Source: a virus. From it: 30,438 bases of DNA. Location of the stretch: positions 1 through 30,438 of the IMG/VR virus record IMGVR_UViG_3300043256_000088; one strand, 5' to 3'. Shown here in pieces: positions 9,716 to 18,990 of the stretch. Positions within the stretch are counted from its first letter, which is position 1. Each line of letters opens with the position of its first letter. Position numbers and translations under genes: made by a program. Below the pieces are notes generated by a model. The model was not told where the DNA came from. It made no database searches and saw nothing but the letters and a program-made list of their open reading frames with translations.

Positions 9716-9831
9716 TTGATCATCGTCTCCAACATCTTGGCGAGAAGAATCGCGATCAAGAACAGCATCCCGGCGATGAAGATGCTCGACATTGCGATCC
9801 AGTTCAGGCTCTGCTCTTGTAGCTTGCTCAT
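9712..9831 (-). CDS. Mini membrane protein, single transmembrane segment (39 residues)
   Basis: The start MSKLQEQSLNWIAM at 9831 overlaps the helicase stop as ATGA, and the stop overlaps the next start as ATGA. Residues 12-34 (SSIFIAGMLFLIAILLAK in the core) form one clear transmembrane helix. It is too short for default gene finders. The coupled overlaps on both sides are the main evidence that it is real. Confidence 0.6.
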   Translation of the reverse strand: MSKLQEQSLNWIAMSSIFIAGMLFLIAILLAKMLETMIK

Positions 9832-11015
9832 TTGATCACCGTCAGGGTGTCGGCCGCGCGGGTGATGGCGGTGTAGAGCCACTTCTGCCAGTCGGCGCGG
9901 AAGCAGCTCGACTCGTCGAACACGAGCACGCTGGGCCACTGCGAGCCCTGGGCCTTGTGCACGGTCAGCACGTAGCCGAATGCGAACTCCTGTACGTCGC
10001 CGCCGCGTTCGTAGCGATCGGGCTTCTCGCCCAGGAAGTGGCACTGCCACGCCTCGATAGTCTGTTGGCGTTCGCCATCCTCAGCCTCGATGTCCATCAG
10101 GATCGTTCCGTCGTCGAACACCGTGGCGTCGTTGGTGGCCTCGTATATCTCGCCGTTCAGCAGGCCCAGGTCGTGGTTGTTTCGCAGGCACACCAGCCGA
10201 TCACTACTTTCGGGGAACCTGTGCATGCGCCCGATCAGGTCACGCACGCGTTTGTTCGTGGCGTGCCGCGTCTTGTTCCGCCCGACCAGTATCTGGTCGT
10301 AGTTGACTGCATCGGCCGGATGCAGGTCGCCCTTGCGCATCACCACAGCGTCGCCCTCGTCGCAGTAGTCCAGGCCCTTGCCCATGCGCACGGCGGTGGC
10401 GAGCCGGAGGATCCCTGACTCCCTGGCTTGCCGGTGCACCTCGGTCAGCATCACGTCGGGCTCGCCGTTCGTGAAGAACCCGCCGCCGAAGACCGGCGGC
10501 AGCTGGGCCGGGTCGCCCAGGACCAGCACGGGCACGCCGAACGAAAGCAGGTCGCGGCCCATCTCTTCGTTGACCATGCTGCACTCGTCGATGATGACCA
10601 GCGCGGCGTCGCGCAGGTTCGAGCAGGGGTCCAACTGGAAGTGAGGCTGCTTCAGCTTGTCGACTTCCTGTTGGATCTGGATGCGCAGGGACATCGCCCG
10701 CTGCGGGCTGGGATCGTCGAGCGCCAGCTTGCGCTGGAGTTCTCGAAGGTACGCGCCGGACTTCGATCGGCTTTCGTAGATCAACCGGTGGATCGTCGTG
10801 GCGCCGACGCAGCCCTTGTCGCGCATGACCGACGCGGCCTTGCCCGTGAACGAGCCGAACGCCACGTGGCCATCTACGCCCTCGGCGAAGTGCTTGGCCA
10901 GCGTCGTCTTGCCGGTGCCGGCGTAGCCCGCGAGGTAGAGGTACGGGTCGTTGGTTTCCTTCAGCCACGTGGCGACGGTGTCGAGCGCGGCGGCTTGTTG
11001 TGGGGACCACTTCAT
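9828..11015 (-). CDS. SF1B DNA helicase, RecD/Dda-like
   Basis: The product has 395 residues from ATG 11015 (MKWSPQQAAALDTVATWL), which is the Q-motif region. Walker A is GYAGTGKTTL, Walker B VIIDECSM, motif III GDPAQLPP, motif V LTVHKAQGSQWPSV and motif VI LYTAITRAADTLTVI. This is the complete set for a 5'-3' SF1B helicase like T4 Dda or RecD2, with the UvrD_C_2-type C-terminal fold. It would unwind DNA or remodel proteins at the replication fork or in recombination. The start overlaps the upstream stop by one base (TGATG); the frame extending to 11096 would bury the upstream gene. Confidence 0.92.
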   Translation of the reverse strand: MKWSPQQAAALDTVATWLKETNDPYLYLAGYAGTGKTTLAKHFAEGVDGHVAFGSFTGKAASVMRDKGCVGATTIHRLIYESRSKSGAYLRELQRKLALDDPSPQRAMSLRIQIQQEVDKLKQPHFQLDPCSNLRDAALVIIDECSMVNEEMGRDLLSFGVPVLVLGDPAQLPPVFGGGFFTNGEPDVMLTEVHRQARESGILRLATAVRMGKGLDYCDEGDAVVMRKGDLHPADAVNYDQILVGRNKTRHATNKRVRDLIGRMHRFPESSDRLVCLRNNHDLGLLNGEIYEATNDATVFDDGTILMDIEAEDGERQQTIEAWQCHFLGEKPDRYERGGDVQEFAFGYVLTVHKAQGSQWPSVLVFDESSCFRADWQKWLYTAITRAADTLTVIK

Positions 11016-11302
11016 CAGAACACGTCTCCGTTCTCTTGCTCTTTGCGGATCTCGTACGGCACGACCAAGCGGCGGTAGAACTCCGCCTTGACGCACCCAA
11101 TGACGCCCATGATTTCGTTGAGGAGTTGGTAGTTGACGGGGCTTGCCTTCGCTTCGAGGTACCCACTGATGATCGTGGTCAGGGCGAAGTTGAGTTCACC
11201 GGGGGTCTTCAGCTCGTAGTACCCAATGTCGAAGAGGTCTCCGGCATTGTTCCCCACGAAGTTGTTGATCTCCGTGCGCCGTTCTGGTTTGATGTATGGC
11301 AT
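11015..11302 (-). CDS. DUF6899-like phage protein
   Basis: The product has 95 residues. It begins MPYIKPERR, continues with GELNFALTTIISGYLE and ends with EFYRRLVVPYE...ENGDVF, the hallmarks of a widespread phage family of unknown function (DUF6899). ATG 11302 is chosen because the family always starts MPYI; the longer frame to 11350 would cross the structured RNA. No ribosome binding site is visible. A strongly folded RNA ends 8 bases before the start codon, so translation may be controlled by that structure. Confidence 0.85.
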   Translation of the reverse strand: MPYIKPERRTEINNFVGNNAGDLFDIGYYELKTPGELNFALTTIISGYLEAKASPVNYQLLNEIMGVIGCVKAEFYRRLVVPYEIRKEQENGDVF

Positions 11303-11310
11303 GGTTCTGT

Positions 11311-11390
11311 GCGGGTAAGGTGGGTGGCTGAGATGTGCAGTCCCAGCCACCCCGGTAGCGCCTCGGGAGTTAGCGGCCTGGATTACCCGC
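11311..11390 (-). ncRNA. Structured leader RNA: closing helix plus 12-bp hairpin, cis-regulatory candidate
   Basis: On the minus-strand transcript GCGGGUAA (11390-11383) pairs perfectly with UUACCCGC (11318-11311). Inside it GGGUGGCUGGGA (11352-11341) pairs with UCUCAGCCACCC (11333-11322) over 12 base pairs with a 7-base loop. One pair is G-U on this strand but would be an A-C mismatch on the opposite strand, which favours a minus-strand RNA. A weaker hairpin may form between 11382 and 11353. It is the only long gap in the early operon and ends 8 bases before the DUF6899-like start. Riboswitch, autoregulatory element or RNA processing site are all possible. Confidence 0.6.
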
Positions 11391-11439
11391 GGCCGTCCGG
11401 GTAGTGTATGGTGCAGGGCCTTTCACCTGCCTGACGCAT
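11383..11439 (-). CDS. Possible 18-codon leader peptide upstream of the structured RNA
   Basis: ATG 11439 opens a frame encoding MRQAGERPCTIHYPDGRG and stopping at TAA 11385-11383. That stop is part of the 5' strand of the closing helix of the structured RNA, so a terminating ribosome would prevent that helix. The ribosome binding site is weak (GGTAAAAAG before ATG). The ORF is short enough to be chance; its placement is the only support. Confidence 0.25.
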   Translation of the reverse strand: MRQAGERPCTIHYPDGRG

Positions 11440-11468
11440 CTTTTTACCGTGTGCGCATCGTTGTTCGA

Positions 11469-12296
11469 TCAGAACGCCGAGTCGTCGGTCTCTTCGCCGC
11501 CGTCGGTGGTCGCGGCCTTCGACAGGTCGGCCTTCACCTCGCCGCCGTCGACCAGGGCCTTCAGTTCCTTGCCGGAAATGTAGCCGGCGTGGTCGGGCGC
11601 CATCAGCGACTGCTGGACGTTGTTGTCGACCGCGAACGTGATCACGTAGTTCGACCACGTGCCGTCGTCGTTCGACTCCTGCGCCGTCGTGAGGGTCACG
11701 CGGTGCGCGAACATCGGAGGGTTGCGCTTCGCGCCCTGGCCGTCGTCCACCAAGCAGTACCGGATGCGGTTGATGAACTTCTTCTTGTAGTGCTTGATCC
11801 CCGAGCTGGAGAAGGGCACCACGACGAAGCCACTCGGGACGTCGTTGCTCAGGACCACGGCATAGACGTAGAACGTCTCGACCAGATCGTTGCCGGACTC
11901 GGTCTTGTACTTGCCGAACTTCGTGCTGGCCTCGATGGCCGCCATCACGATGTCGGAGCCGGGCTGGTGCACGCGCACGATGCCGCCGCCCTGCTTACGC
12001 GGGCGCCATTCCACGAAGACGTGCTGCCGCATCGCGGGCACGATCGTGACGGACTCCAGCAGCTCCGCGGTACCGGTGTTCAAGAAGATGCCGGCAGCGG
12101 CACCCGCGATCTTGCCATCTGGCCCGATCACTTCGGGGCTCTGCGCTTGCAGGATCTTCAGGAAGGGGATGCCAGCTTCGTCCCGGCCCACGTCATCGAG
12201 GCCGGCGCCGATGTCGGTGCCGTAGTCGATGACCGGCGCGAGCGCGGTCGACTTGGCTTTTGCCACTGCTGTGGTCTTCTTCTTCTTGGTCGTCAT
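11469..12296 (-). CDS. ssb: Phage single-stranded DNA-binding protein (SSB-like)
   Basis: A protein of 275 residues that starts with a lysine-rich tail (MTTKKKKTTAVAKAKST). It has a beta-rich core (LESVTIVPAMRQHVFVEWRP; GFVVVPFSSSGIKHYKK) and ends with an acidic tail finishing EETDDSAF. Such a terminal acid-plus-Phe tail is the protein-interaction tip of SSB proteins (DDDIPF in E. coli). The arrangement matches large phage SSB-like proteins next to replication genes. It would coat single-stranded DNA and recruit polymerase and helicase. The start at 12296 overlaps the sigma-factor stop as ATGA. Confidence 0.75.
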   Translation of the reverse strand: MTTKKKKTTAVAKAKSTALAPVIDYGTDIGAGLDDVGRDEAGIPFLKILQAQSPEVIGPDGKIAGAAAGIFLNTGTAELLESVTIVPAMRQHVFVEWRPRKQGGGIVRVHQPGSDIVMAAIEASTKFGKYKTESGNDLVETFYVYAVVLSNDVPSGFVVVPFSSSGIKHYKKKFINRIRYCLVDDGQGAKRNPPMFAHRVTLTTAQESNDDGTWSNYVITFAVDNNVQQSLMAPDHAGYISGKELKALVDGGEVKADLSKAATTDGGEETDDSAF

Positions 12297-12952
12297 AGCG
12301 GGTCTGTCTCACTGTCAGGGGTTTGGGCCGGCTCTTTATGGTGCCCGGCCGTTTCAGCACCGTACTCTTGAAGTATACTCTGCTCTGCGAGAAGTGCACG
12401 GAGTTTCTCTTCTCCAGATTTTTGTATCTGTCGAACGCGCTCGGCGGTCACGCCCAAGATGTCGCCGACCTTGGCCAGCGTCATCGCCGCGGTGTTTATG
12501 CCGTGCCGCAGGCGTACCACGATCCCTTCGCGGGCGGGTAGGTCTTTGATGCACGCGCGCACGGCGTCGACCATCTCTGCCTCGTCCATCTGCTCCGAAG
12601 CGTCCGGCATCTCGTCCGGCATCTCCACCACGCGAGCCTCGTCCAGCGTGCCACAGATGTGGGACGGGCGGCGCCGCGGGGTGCGGACTATCTCGTTTCG
12701 ATTGTGGATCGCGTCCATGACCCGCTTCATGATGTGCCAGCGGGCGTAGGTCGAGAACTTGGTGCCGCGTTTCGGGTCGAACTTCTCGGCCGCGTCTATC
12801 AACCCCATGTGGGCTTCCTGCACGAGGTCGGGGTACTCCATCCGCGACGCCTGGAACTGGCTAGCGAAGTGCGTCGACAGCCCGATGTTGGCCTCGACGA
12901 GGCGGTTGCGCTTCTCTTGGGCGGGGGTGAGGGGCTTGGGCTTCTTCATCAT
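12293..12952 (-). CDS. Sigma-70 family RNA polymerase sigma factor
   Basis: The product has 219 residues from ATG 12952 (ATGA overlap; ATG 12949 is one codon shorter). Region 2 is clear: DLVQEAHMGLIDAAEKFDP, RGTKFSTYARWHIMKRVMDAI and the region 2.4 segment ending IVRTPRR. Region 4 is AMTLAKVGDILGVTAERVRQIQ followed by KLRALL, close to the -35-recognising helix-turn-helix of RpoD. The stretch between is short and acidic, without an obvious region 3, and region 1.1 is absent. It should direct host RNA polymerase to phage promoters, most likely middle or late ones. The promoter-melting Trp pair of RpoD (YATWWI) is YARWHI here. Confidence 0.88.
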   Translation of the reverse strand: MMKKPKPLTPAQEKRNRLVEANIGLSTHFASQFQASRMEYPDLVQEAHMGLIDAAEKFDPKRGTKFSTYARWHIMKRVMDAIHNRNEIVRTPRRRPSHICGTLDEARVVEMPDEMPDASEQMDEAEMVDAVRACIKDLPAREGIVVRLRHGINTAAMTLAKVGDILGVTAERVRQIQKSGEEKLRALLAEQSILQEYGAETAGHHKEPAQTPDSETDPL

Positions 12953-13620
12953 ACGGCCTCGAACATCGACACCATGCGGACCCTGTGATTGGTGCTTCGC
13001 ACCAACCCCACGGTGCCCCACGTCTTCCAGTCGACCTTGCGGTGCATGGGCCACACCTGATCGAGCCAGACGAGGTTGCCGCCGCGTTTACACACACGGC
13101 GCAGCGCGCGCATGACCTGTCCGCGTTGCGGCGGCGGGCAGTCGTACTTCGCGGCATCTTCCTTGGAGTAGGGTGGGTCGGCCAGGATCAGGTCGAAGCG
13201 TCCTTGCCATGCTTCAGGCATGGCAAGGACATCCCCCTGCCACGTCGGGTAGCGGCCTTGCTCGGGGCCGTGCATGTCGACGAGCGTTATCCGATAGCCA
13301 GTAGGACCCATCTCTTCCGAAGGTGGTCCTTGCCAGAAGCGGGCGGCCACAGCAGCATCGAATGTTAGTCCGCCTGAAAACACATGCAAGATGCTCTTCG
13401 CGTCGGGGAACATGGCGTGGACCCGCTCCAGGTAGCCGTGCGGGTAAGCGCCGTAGAAGGGCGTACCATCTGGGTTGCGACTAGGGTTCTTGTAGCAGGC
13501 GCCGATCATCCACGTGCCGGCCACCATGCCGTTGCCATACGCCAAGGGCGGGCGCTTGGGGAAGGCGTTGTTGTACAGGAGGTGCCGAGCGAACGCACGT
13601 AGCTTGGGATCACCAGTCAT
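12949..13620 (-). CDS. DNA methyltransferase (DPPY motif)
   Basis: The product has 223 residues from ATG 13620 (MTGDPKLRAFARHLL), which overlaps the upstream stop as ATGA. Motif I is ILHVFSGGLTFDAA (FxGG), an acidic strand end is RITLVDMHG, a motif III-like Asp is WQGDVLAMP, and motif IV is FDLILADPPYSKED. Motif I before DPPY indicates an alpha/gamma-like amino-methyltransferase (N6-adenine or N4-cytosine). No separate target-recognition domain is visible. No partner restriction enzyme is nearby, so protection from host restriction or self-marking is likely. The gene contains a perfect 13-bp inverted repeat at 13200-13230. Confidence 0.82.
   Translation of the reverse strand: MTGDPKLRAFARHLLYNNAFPKRPPLAYGNGMVAGTWMIGACYKNPSRNPDGTPFYGAYPHGYLERVHAMFPDAKSILHVFSGGLTFDAAVAARFWQGPPSEEMGPTGYRITLVDMHGPEQGRYPTWQGDVLAMPEAWQGRFDLILADPPYSKEDAAKYDCPPPQRGQVMRALRRVCKRGGNLVWLDQVWPMHRKVDWKTWGTVGLVRSTNHRVRMVSMFEAV
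13200..13230 (-). repeat. Perfect 13-bp inverted repeat (hairpin) inside the methyltransferase gene
   Basis: GTCCTTGCCATGC (13230-13218 on the minus strand) is followed by CTGAA and the exact reverse complement GCATGGCAAGGAC (13212-13200). In the mRNA this makes a 13-bp stem with a 5-base loop and no following U-tract. It encodes the segment VLAMPEAWQGR and lies about 250 bases before the sigma-factor start. Confidence 0.85.
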
Positions 13621-13829
13621 CGGTCTTCCCTCCACTCGATCCTGACGCCCAGCAGCTTGAGGTTCCGCGGTGGCTCACCAACTTCTTCCTCAAGTGACTT
13701 CTTCACGGAGGTCGGGAACGTCACGGAGTCGGGGCCGGAGCCGCCGAAGCGCTCCATCGAAGTGCGGATGTGGGATCGCACTACGTCGAGCATCATGCGC
13801 CGGATCGGGCCGTCGTTCCACTCCTTCAT
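13617..13829 (-). CDS. Small protein (70 residues), unknown function
   Basis: It begins MKEWNDGPIRRMMLDVVRSH and ends GVRIEWREDR, with ATGA overlaps on both sides. It is a charged, mostly helical protein with a Gly/Ser/Pro-rich middle (RFGGSGPDSVTFPTS). No family recognised. Confidence 0.6.
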   Translation of the reverse strand: MKEWNDGPIRRMMLDVVRSHIRTSMERFGGSGPDSVTFPTSVKKSLEEEVGEPPRNLKLLGVRIEWREDR

Positions 13830-14954: not shown

Positions 14955-15121
14955 AGCTTCTTTCCCCAGCTGATGCGAATGCTGCCGAACAGCAGGTCGA
15001 AGATGATCGTGCGGCCCCCGCACTTGAAGCCCAGGCTGTACTTCCAGCCACCGCCGAAGCGGCCCAGGTACCATTTGGTGCAGCTGTATTGCCAGGGCCA
15101 GCGATCGAACTTGACCTTCAT
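14951..15121 (-). CDS. Small aromatic, basic protein (56 residues) next to the radical SAM gene
   Basis: Starts at ATG 15121 (MKVKFDRWPWQYSCTKWYLG), with ATGA overlaps on both sides. It is rich in Trp, Tyr, Phe, Gly and Lys, with WPWQY, KWYLGRF and GWKYSLGF, then FDLLFGSIRISWGKKL. The last part resembles small phage proteins I have seen without a radical SAM neighbour. A substrate-peptide role is a weaker alternative. Function unknown. Confidence 0.6.
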   Translation of the reverse strand: MKVKFDRWPWQYSCTKWYLGRFGGGWKYSLGFKCGGRTIIFDLLFGSIRISWGKKL

Positions 15122-18536: not shown

Positions 18537-18561
18537 GGGGGTCTACATGAGGAGAAAAGGT

Positions 18562-18594
18562 GCCGGCGGGGCCCCATCACGAACCCCAGCCGGC
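18562..18594 (-). promoter_or_regulatory. GC-rich hairpin in the leader of the early operon
   Basis: GCCGGCGGGG (18562-18571) pairs with CCCC-A-GCCGGC (18584-18594), a 10-bp stem with one bulged A and a 12-base loop. On the minus strand it is followed by ACCTTTTC, a weak U-tract. It lies 26 bases before the first early gene. It could end read-through transcription from the tail genes, attenuate the early transcript, or stabilise the mRNA 5' end. Confidence 0.45.
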
Positions 18595-18642
18595 GCCGTC
18601 AACTACAAGCCAACGGCAGGAGAGCAATCAAACCAACGCGGA

Positions 18643-18651
18643 AGTATACCA
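18643..18651 (-). promoter_or_regulatory. Candidate early promoter, extended -10 box TGGTATACT
   Basis: On the minus strand TGGTATACT matches the extended -10 consensus TGnTATAAT at 8 of 9 positions. No TTGACA-like -35 is found 16-18 bases upstream, consistent with an extended -10 promoter or an activator-dependent one. The predicted transcript would have a leader of about 100 bases containing the GC-rich hairpin. The repeat array begins about 50 bases upstream. Confidence 0.4.
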
Positions 18652-18702
18652 CGCGCGGCGGTCGCGTGCTGGATCCCTTCCTAAATTCCGTCAACGTCTC
18701 GT

Positions 18703-18990
18703 GCAAGACGGTGTTACGGTGATGAAACAGTGTACGTCCAGGCGGTGAATGAGGCTCACCAACACGGTCTATCACCATGTACACTATCTAACACCATCTT
18801 GTTGTAGAAGTACAGAGAAGAACAGAAACGGTGTACGTCGCGCCTGTTTTGGGGCAATCGCTCGGAAGATGGTGCAAACGGTGTTATGGTGTTAGGATCA
18901 CGGACCGCTCGATGGCATGGGCTTTGTAGGCGGGCAAATCCTGTCCGGTTTCAAAATGAAACCGTGTACTGGGCGGCAAGATGGTGTTAG
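18703..18990. repeat. Array of about ten 13-bp repeats (TAACACCRTCTTG family) in both orientations
   Basis: Copies reading on the minus strand lie at about 18717-18703, 18739-18722, 18840-18823, 18878-18865, 18887-18875, 18895-18886, 18972-18956 and 18990-18976. Copies reading on the plus strand lie at 18760-18772, 18779-18790 and 18788-18803. The 13-mer AAGATGGTGTTAG at 18978-18990 occurs exactly, inverted, at 18788-18800. A variant GTACACNGTTTC occurs three times. The stretch is AT-richer than the genes (25 of 60 bases G or C in 18781-18840). Likely binding sites for a phage replication initiator or repressor. The last copy overlaps the end of the neighbouring gene. Confidence 0.75.
18946..18964. 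repeat. Perfect 19-bp palindrome within the repeat array
   Basis: CGGTTTCA and TGAAACCG flank AAA. The right arm merges with one copy of the array repeat (GAAACCGTGTAC). There is no U-tract on either side, so a protein-binding operator is more likely than a terminator. Confidence 0.6.

Follow-up and report, generated by a model that had tools for sequence, protein, structure and literature searches.

A strong hairpin behind the ssb-like gene in the replication operon of a virus related to Mesyanzhinovviridae

The one sizeable gap in the replication operon of this virus contig contains a very stable 12-bp hairpin, and most relatives that we surveyed have a strong hairpin in the same place, immediately after the ssb-like gene. 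We consider it somewhat better than an even bet that this is the family's post-ssb hairpin, acting as a partial terminator (attenuator) and as a protector of the message's 3' end. The place of the hairpin is conserved among relatives and its sequence is not. Conservation of structure in place rather than of sequence fits a generic hairpin function of this kind, partial termination combined with 3'-end protection.

The gap and its 12-bp hairpin

The window, meaning the whole stretch of DNA that we analyzed, is a virus contig of 30,438 bases whose nearest isolates, by protein and by gene order, are Mesyanzhinovviridae. All genes around the hairpin site lie on the minus strand, so the RNA considered here is the reverse complement of 11311-11390. 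A table of gaps bore out the first-pass annotation, which had described 166 bases (11303-11468, minus strand) as the sole sizeable gap in the early/replication operon. It stands alone between about 18.3 kb and 0.1 kb, and an apparent 190-nt gap near 15 kb is occupied by an ORF starting at 15121. The gene identities proposed for its two sides, ssb-like and DUF6899-like, also held. Upstream is the ssb-like gene (Pam3_Gp34/phrog_2402; 11469-12296, minus strand; PF23977, E = 1.1e-49; phrog_2402, E = 3e-59), and its product shows in an alignment an SSB-like acidic C-terminus that ends DDSAF, with a final phenylalanine. Downstream is the DUF6899 gene (11015-11302, minus strand; Pfam PF21840, E = 8e-21), followed by a Dda-like helicase gene (9828-11015, minus strand; phrog_325, E = 1e-90) that is also supported by synteny in loci L007-L010 and L013. 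A tRNA search returned none, and no sigma-70 promoter was found in the 166-nt gap. The lack of a visible ribosome binding site before the DUF6899 gene had been pointed out as a feature of the site; it is not distinctive, since genes without a Shine-Dalgarno sequence are common in this phage.

A second stretch of the window caught our attention. At 18537-18986, on the boundary between the tail-gene block and the replication block, there is a 450-nt gap in which GAAACnGTGTAC occurs three times and the words ACGGTGTTA and TAACACC are repeated in both orientations. These repeated words are possibly operator or promoter sites.

The 12-bp hairpin (11322-11352, minus strand; GGGUGGCUGGGA-CUGCACA-UCUCAGCCACCC, with a 7-nt loop) is present on the minus strand exactly as had been claimed, with one G-U pair. 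Its folding energy of -21.9 kcal/mol ranks second among the minus-strand perfect-stem hairpins of the 30.4-kb window, and most of its base pairs kept a probability near 1 in almost every context that we folded. The top-ranked hairpin of the window is a 14-bp inverted repeat (GTCCTTGCCATGC..GCATGGCAAGGAC, 13199-13231) located within a coding gene (12949-13635). Only 19 nt separate the 12-bp hairpin from the ATG of the DUF6899 gene. Its stem is G+C-rich and stable, as in a canonical intrinsic terminator; its 3' tail, ACCUUACCC, has 2 U in 8 nt. Lacking a U-tract (tail ACCUUACC), the hairpin is not classed as a canonical intrinsic terminator, and a terminator scan did not call it.

Folding of the gap beyond the hairpin

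The 8-bp closing helix that had been proposed around this hairpin has its 5' arm, GCGGGUAA, at 11383-11390 and its 3' arm, UUACCCGC, at 11311-11318 (both minus strand). The two arms are perfect complements, as had been described, but the helix itself proved not to be robust. In contexts of 80 to 118 nt it paired with a probability of about 1.0. Folding all 166 nt of the gap lowered this to 0.03; with part of the following gene included the value was 0.8, and with a longer context it was 0.14. It competes with other pairings, an upstream UACCCG/CGGGUA pairing among them, and the gap holds mutually exclusive pairings. Perfect 8-bp repeats of the same span occur 52 times in the window, which corresponds to 0.28 expected per 166 nt. 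The outer helix is probably incidental.

The claim of strong structure likewise stood in part. The 80-nt piece 11311-11390 folds at -38.4 kcal/mol (z = -3.1, with 2 of 200 shuffles as good), but this is the value of a hand-picked piece; the whole 166-nt gap reaches z = -1.16, with 26 of 200 shuffles as good. The assertion that the pairing works only on the transcribed strand was wrong. The plus strand folds at -41.9, slightly better than the minus strand, and strand specificity is therefore unsupported.

These values bear on whether the structure is incidental altogether, either a remnant of the acquisition of the DUF6899 gene or a chance fold of a G+C-rich spacer. Many shuffles of the whole gap fold as well as the gap itself, and about 0.3 helices like the outer one would arise per gap by chance. 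The only close relative that we found (locus L001, with an ssb-like protein 68% identical) also speaks for it, as it has no DUF6899 gene and its gap does not match that of the window in sequence. We nevertheless think this explanation unlikely, because the hairpin is the second strongest on the minus strand in 30 kb and sits inside the one gap, and because a strong hairpin is kept at the same junction in relatives.

In L001 the order of genes is ssb-like, a 129-nt gap, and helicase, the same as in the window minus DUF6899. The L001 gap folds strongly (z = -3.6) and contains GCAGCGG..CCGCTGC with ACTTTTTT behind it, a site of the canonical terminator-like type. When the two gaps were aligned with stringent scoring, 425 of 1000 shuffles did as well, a match no better than chance; loose scoring gave a weak signal (98 of 1000 shuffles as good). 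A likeness between the nested helices of the two gaps, noticed by eye, was dropped on account of these alignment results. Searches turned up no close homologue of the gap sequence.

The DUF6899 gene (11015-11302) looks like an accessory gene in this phage, given that it is missing from the syntenic place in L001 (by L001 ORFs and tblastn of the loci) and that it has other neighbors elsewhere. In Roseobacter phage CRP-7 its homologue lies in a different context, between DNA polymerase and glutaredoxin. For the same two reasons we rejected DUF6899 as the conserved downstream partner of the RNA.

Hairpins behind the ssb-like gene in relatives

We collected 131 distinct loci with an ssb-like (Pam3_Gp34) gene from viral, genome and phage collections and reduced them to a non-redundant set of 80 at 70% protein identity. 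A locus was scored as positive if a perfect stem of -15 kcal/mol or better was found within 130 nt past the ssb stop. Strong hairpins were found there in 62% of the 80 loci, compared with 1.9% when places were drawn at random from those loci (Mann-Whitney p about 1e-24). Downstream of the helicase gene, a strong hairpin was found in 6% of 80 stretches. Among the 78 strong hairpins from all relatives, 55% had four or more T among the nine bases that follow. A predicted Rho-independent terminator is annotated at the ssb junction in the YuA record, and canonical terminator-like sites were called at this junction in L001 and M6.

At +117 to +147 relative to the ssb stop, the window hairpin is farther out than in most relatives and thus outside the 130-nt test stretch. 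The window and L001 both miss the -15 threshold in this test, and the window was not counted as a success. Its hairpin is strong, lies on the coding strand and falls after the ssb-like stop but before the next gene, and we placed it in the post-ssb pattern by its junction, its strand and its distance to the next ATG (19 nt, as against 24-30 nt in CN1, Bhz59 and M6). The suggestion that selection keeps the gap for an RNA structure is supported at the level of the family (62% of 80 loci); the window's own hairpin falls beyond the stretch that was tested.

The window hairpin shares with the intrinsic-terminator-like hairpins of YuA, M6, CN1 and PaMx11 (all Mesyanzhinovviridae) a strong G+C-rich stem of about 7-12 bp at the junction of the ssb-like gene and a replication gene, on the same strand and 20-30 nt before the next ATG. 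It differs from them in lacking a U-tract, in lying farther from the ssb stop, and in having DUF6899 as the next gene instead of the helicase. In the annotated Mesyanzhinovviridae relatives a Dda-like helicase gene directly follows ssb, and where the helicase comes next the gap has a median length of 85 nt.

Most relatives carry a terminator-like hairpin at the spot that this one occupies, so its likeliest role is to curb read-through or to shield the ssb message. A fraction of the RNA polymerase would halt at the hairpin, or the message would be trimmed back to it. The ssb-like message, presumably abundant, would thereby gain a stable 3' end, and the replication genes that follow (DUF6899, helicase and later ones) would be produced in smaller amounts. 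Activity without a U-tract would have a parallel in the early region of phage phiC31, for which U-less Rho-independent terminators are on record (Ingham 1995, as listed in PMC8355165). The likeness, as far as that listing goes, is of a hairpin without a U-tract in a phage early region; phiC31 is an unrelated phage, and the activity of the window hairpin is a proposal. Terminator hairpins have also been reported to increase the stability of the upstream mRNA (PMC11696848). We searched the literature for maps of transcripts from YuA-like phages and found none.

Which of the two effects would dominate is a matter of inference. It is possible, if rather doubtful, that the hairpin does not stop transcription at all and serves instead as a block to 3' exonucleases or as a processing site, giving the ssb mRNA a longer life than the remainder of the polycistronic transcript. 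A very stable stem with no U-tract would suit such a role, as would the reported effect of terminator-type hairpins on upstream mRNA. The T-run added in many relatives argues against it, being needless for a pure barrier. Under our preferred reading, in which partial termination and protection act together, the post-ssb hairpin probably sets how much ssb is made relative to the other replication proteins. The occurrence of a hairpin at the ssb junction across the family would also be the reason that the gap persists in tightly packed phage operons.

Regulatory RNA in the window and in a sister lineage

The first-pass annotation had raised the idea of a new riboswitch or SSB-binding regulatory RNA. 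Such a cis-regulatory RNA would bind SSB or a small molecule and control expression of ssb or of DUF6899 and helicase, perhaps with the outer helix and the competing UACCCG/CGGGUA pairing upstream as its two alternative states. The mutually exclusive pairings of the gap are in keeping with this, as is the conserved, covarying RNA that a sister lineage has between its ssb-like and primase genes. We nonetheless regard it as highly improbable for the window, whose element has no demonstrable sequence conservation or covariation, is unconserved even in L001, and matches neither Rfam nor the model of the sister-lineage RNA. An Rfam covariance search of the window element returned nothing at the gathering score and only weak matches (E = 0.34 and 1.4) at relaxed settings. 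The relatives also count against the idea, since their hairpins are plain G+C ones that resemble intrinsic terminators and often have a U-tract. Slimmer still, in our estimate, is the chance that the post-ssb gap hosts different regulatory RNAs by lineage, the window's being an attenuator with two states. In it, GCGGGUAA would have UACCCG on its upstream side and UUACCCGC downstream as alternative partners, and SSB or translation would set the choice.

The idea of a regulatory RNA fits the other lineage better. There, a 95-nt RNA lies between the ssb-like gene and a gene of primase type (the sister phage DSL-LC04 has it annotated as primase) in 39 IMG/VR contigs with 22 distinct sequences (L189:3934-4028; also in L180-L189, L191, L192, L194, L196-L201 and L203-L222). 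It lies directly behind an ORF, mostly ending GPAPF, in 38 of the 39 contigs, and the next ATG is 21-24 nt downstream in all. Its outer helix, GGGGCC/GGCCCC, is invariant, a second helix and a hairpin covary, and the loops GAUAGUUGA, GGUAGCUCC, CGGGUACCC and GAGUAGG are nearly invariant. Across 13 sequences, 95.7% of cells pair and 10 pairs are changed on both sides. The covariation score was reached by none of 500 shuffles; slid controls collapse, a comparison biased in favor of the structure, which came out of the very alignment being tested. The RNA matched no Rfam family, and blastn found it in no phage record. We propose it as a candidate new phage cis-regulatory RNA, and one more likely than the window element to be a true regulatory RNA. 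As a homologue of the window element it was rejected. The best hit of its covariance model (R1) in the window scored 8 bits (E = 4.5) and lay elsewhere.

A distinct two-hairpin arrangement, with CAACTATGGG..CCCATAGTTG followed by GGGAGGGTAG..CTACTCTCCC, recurs just past the ssb-like stop in another group of contigs (L143, L154, L158 and L160).
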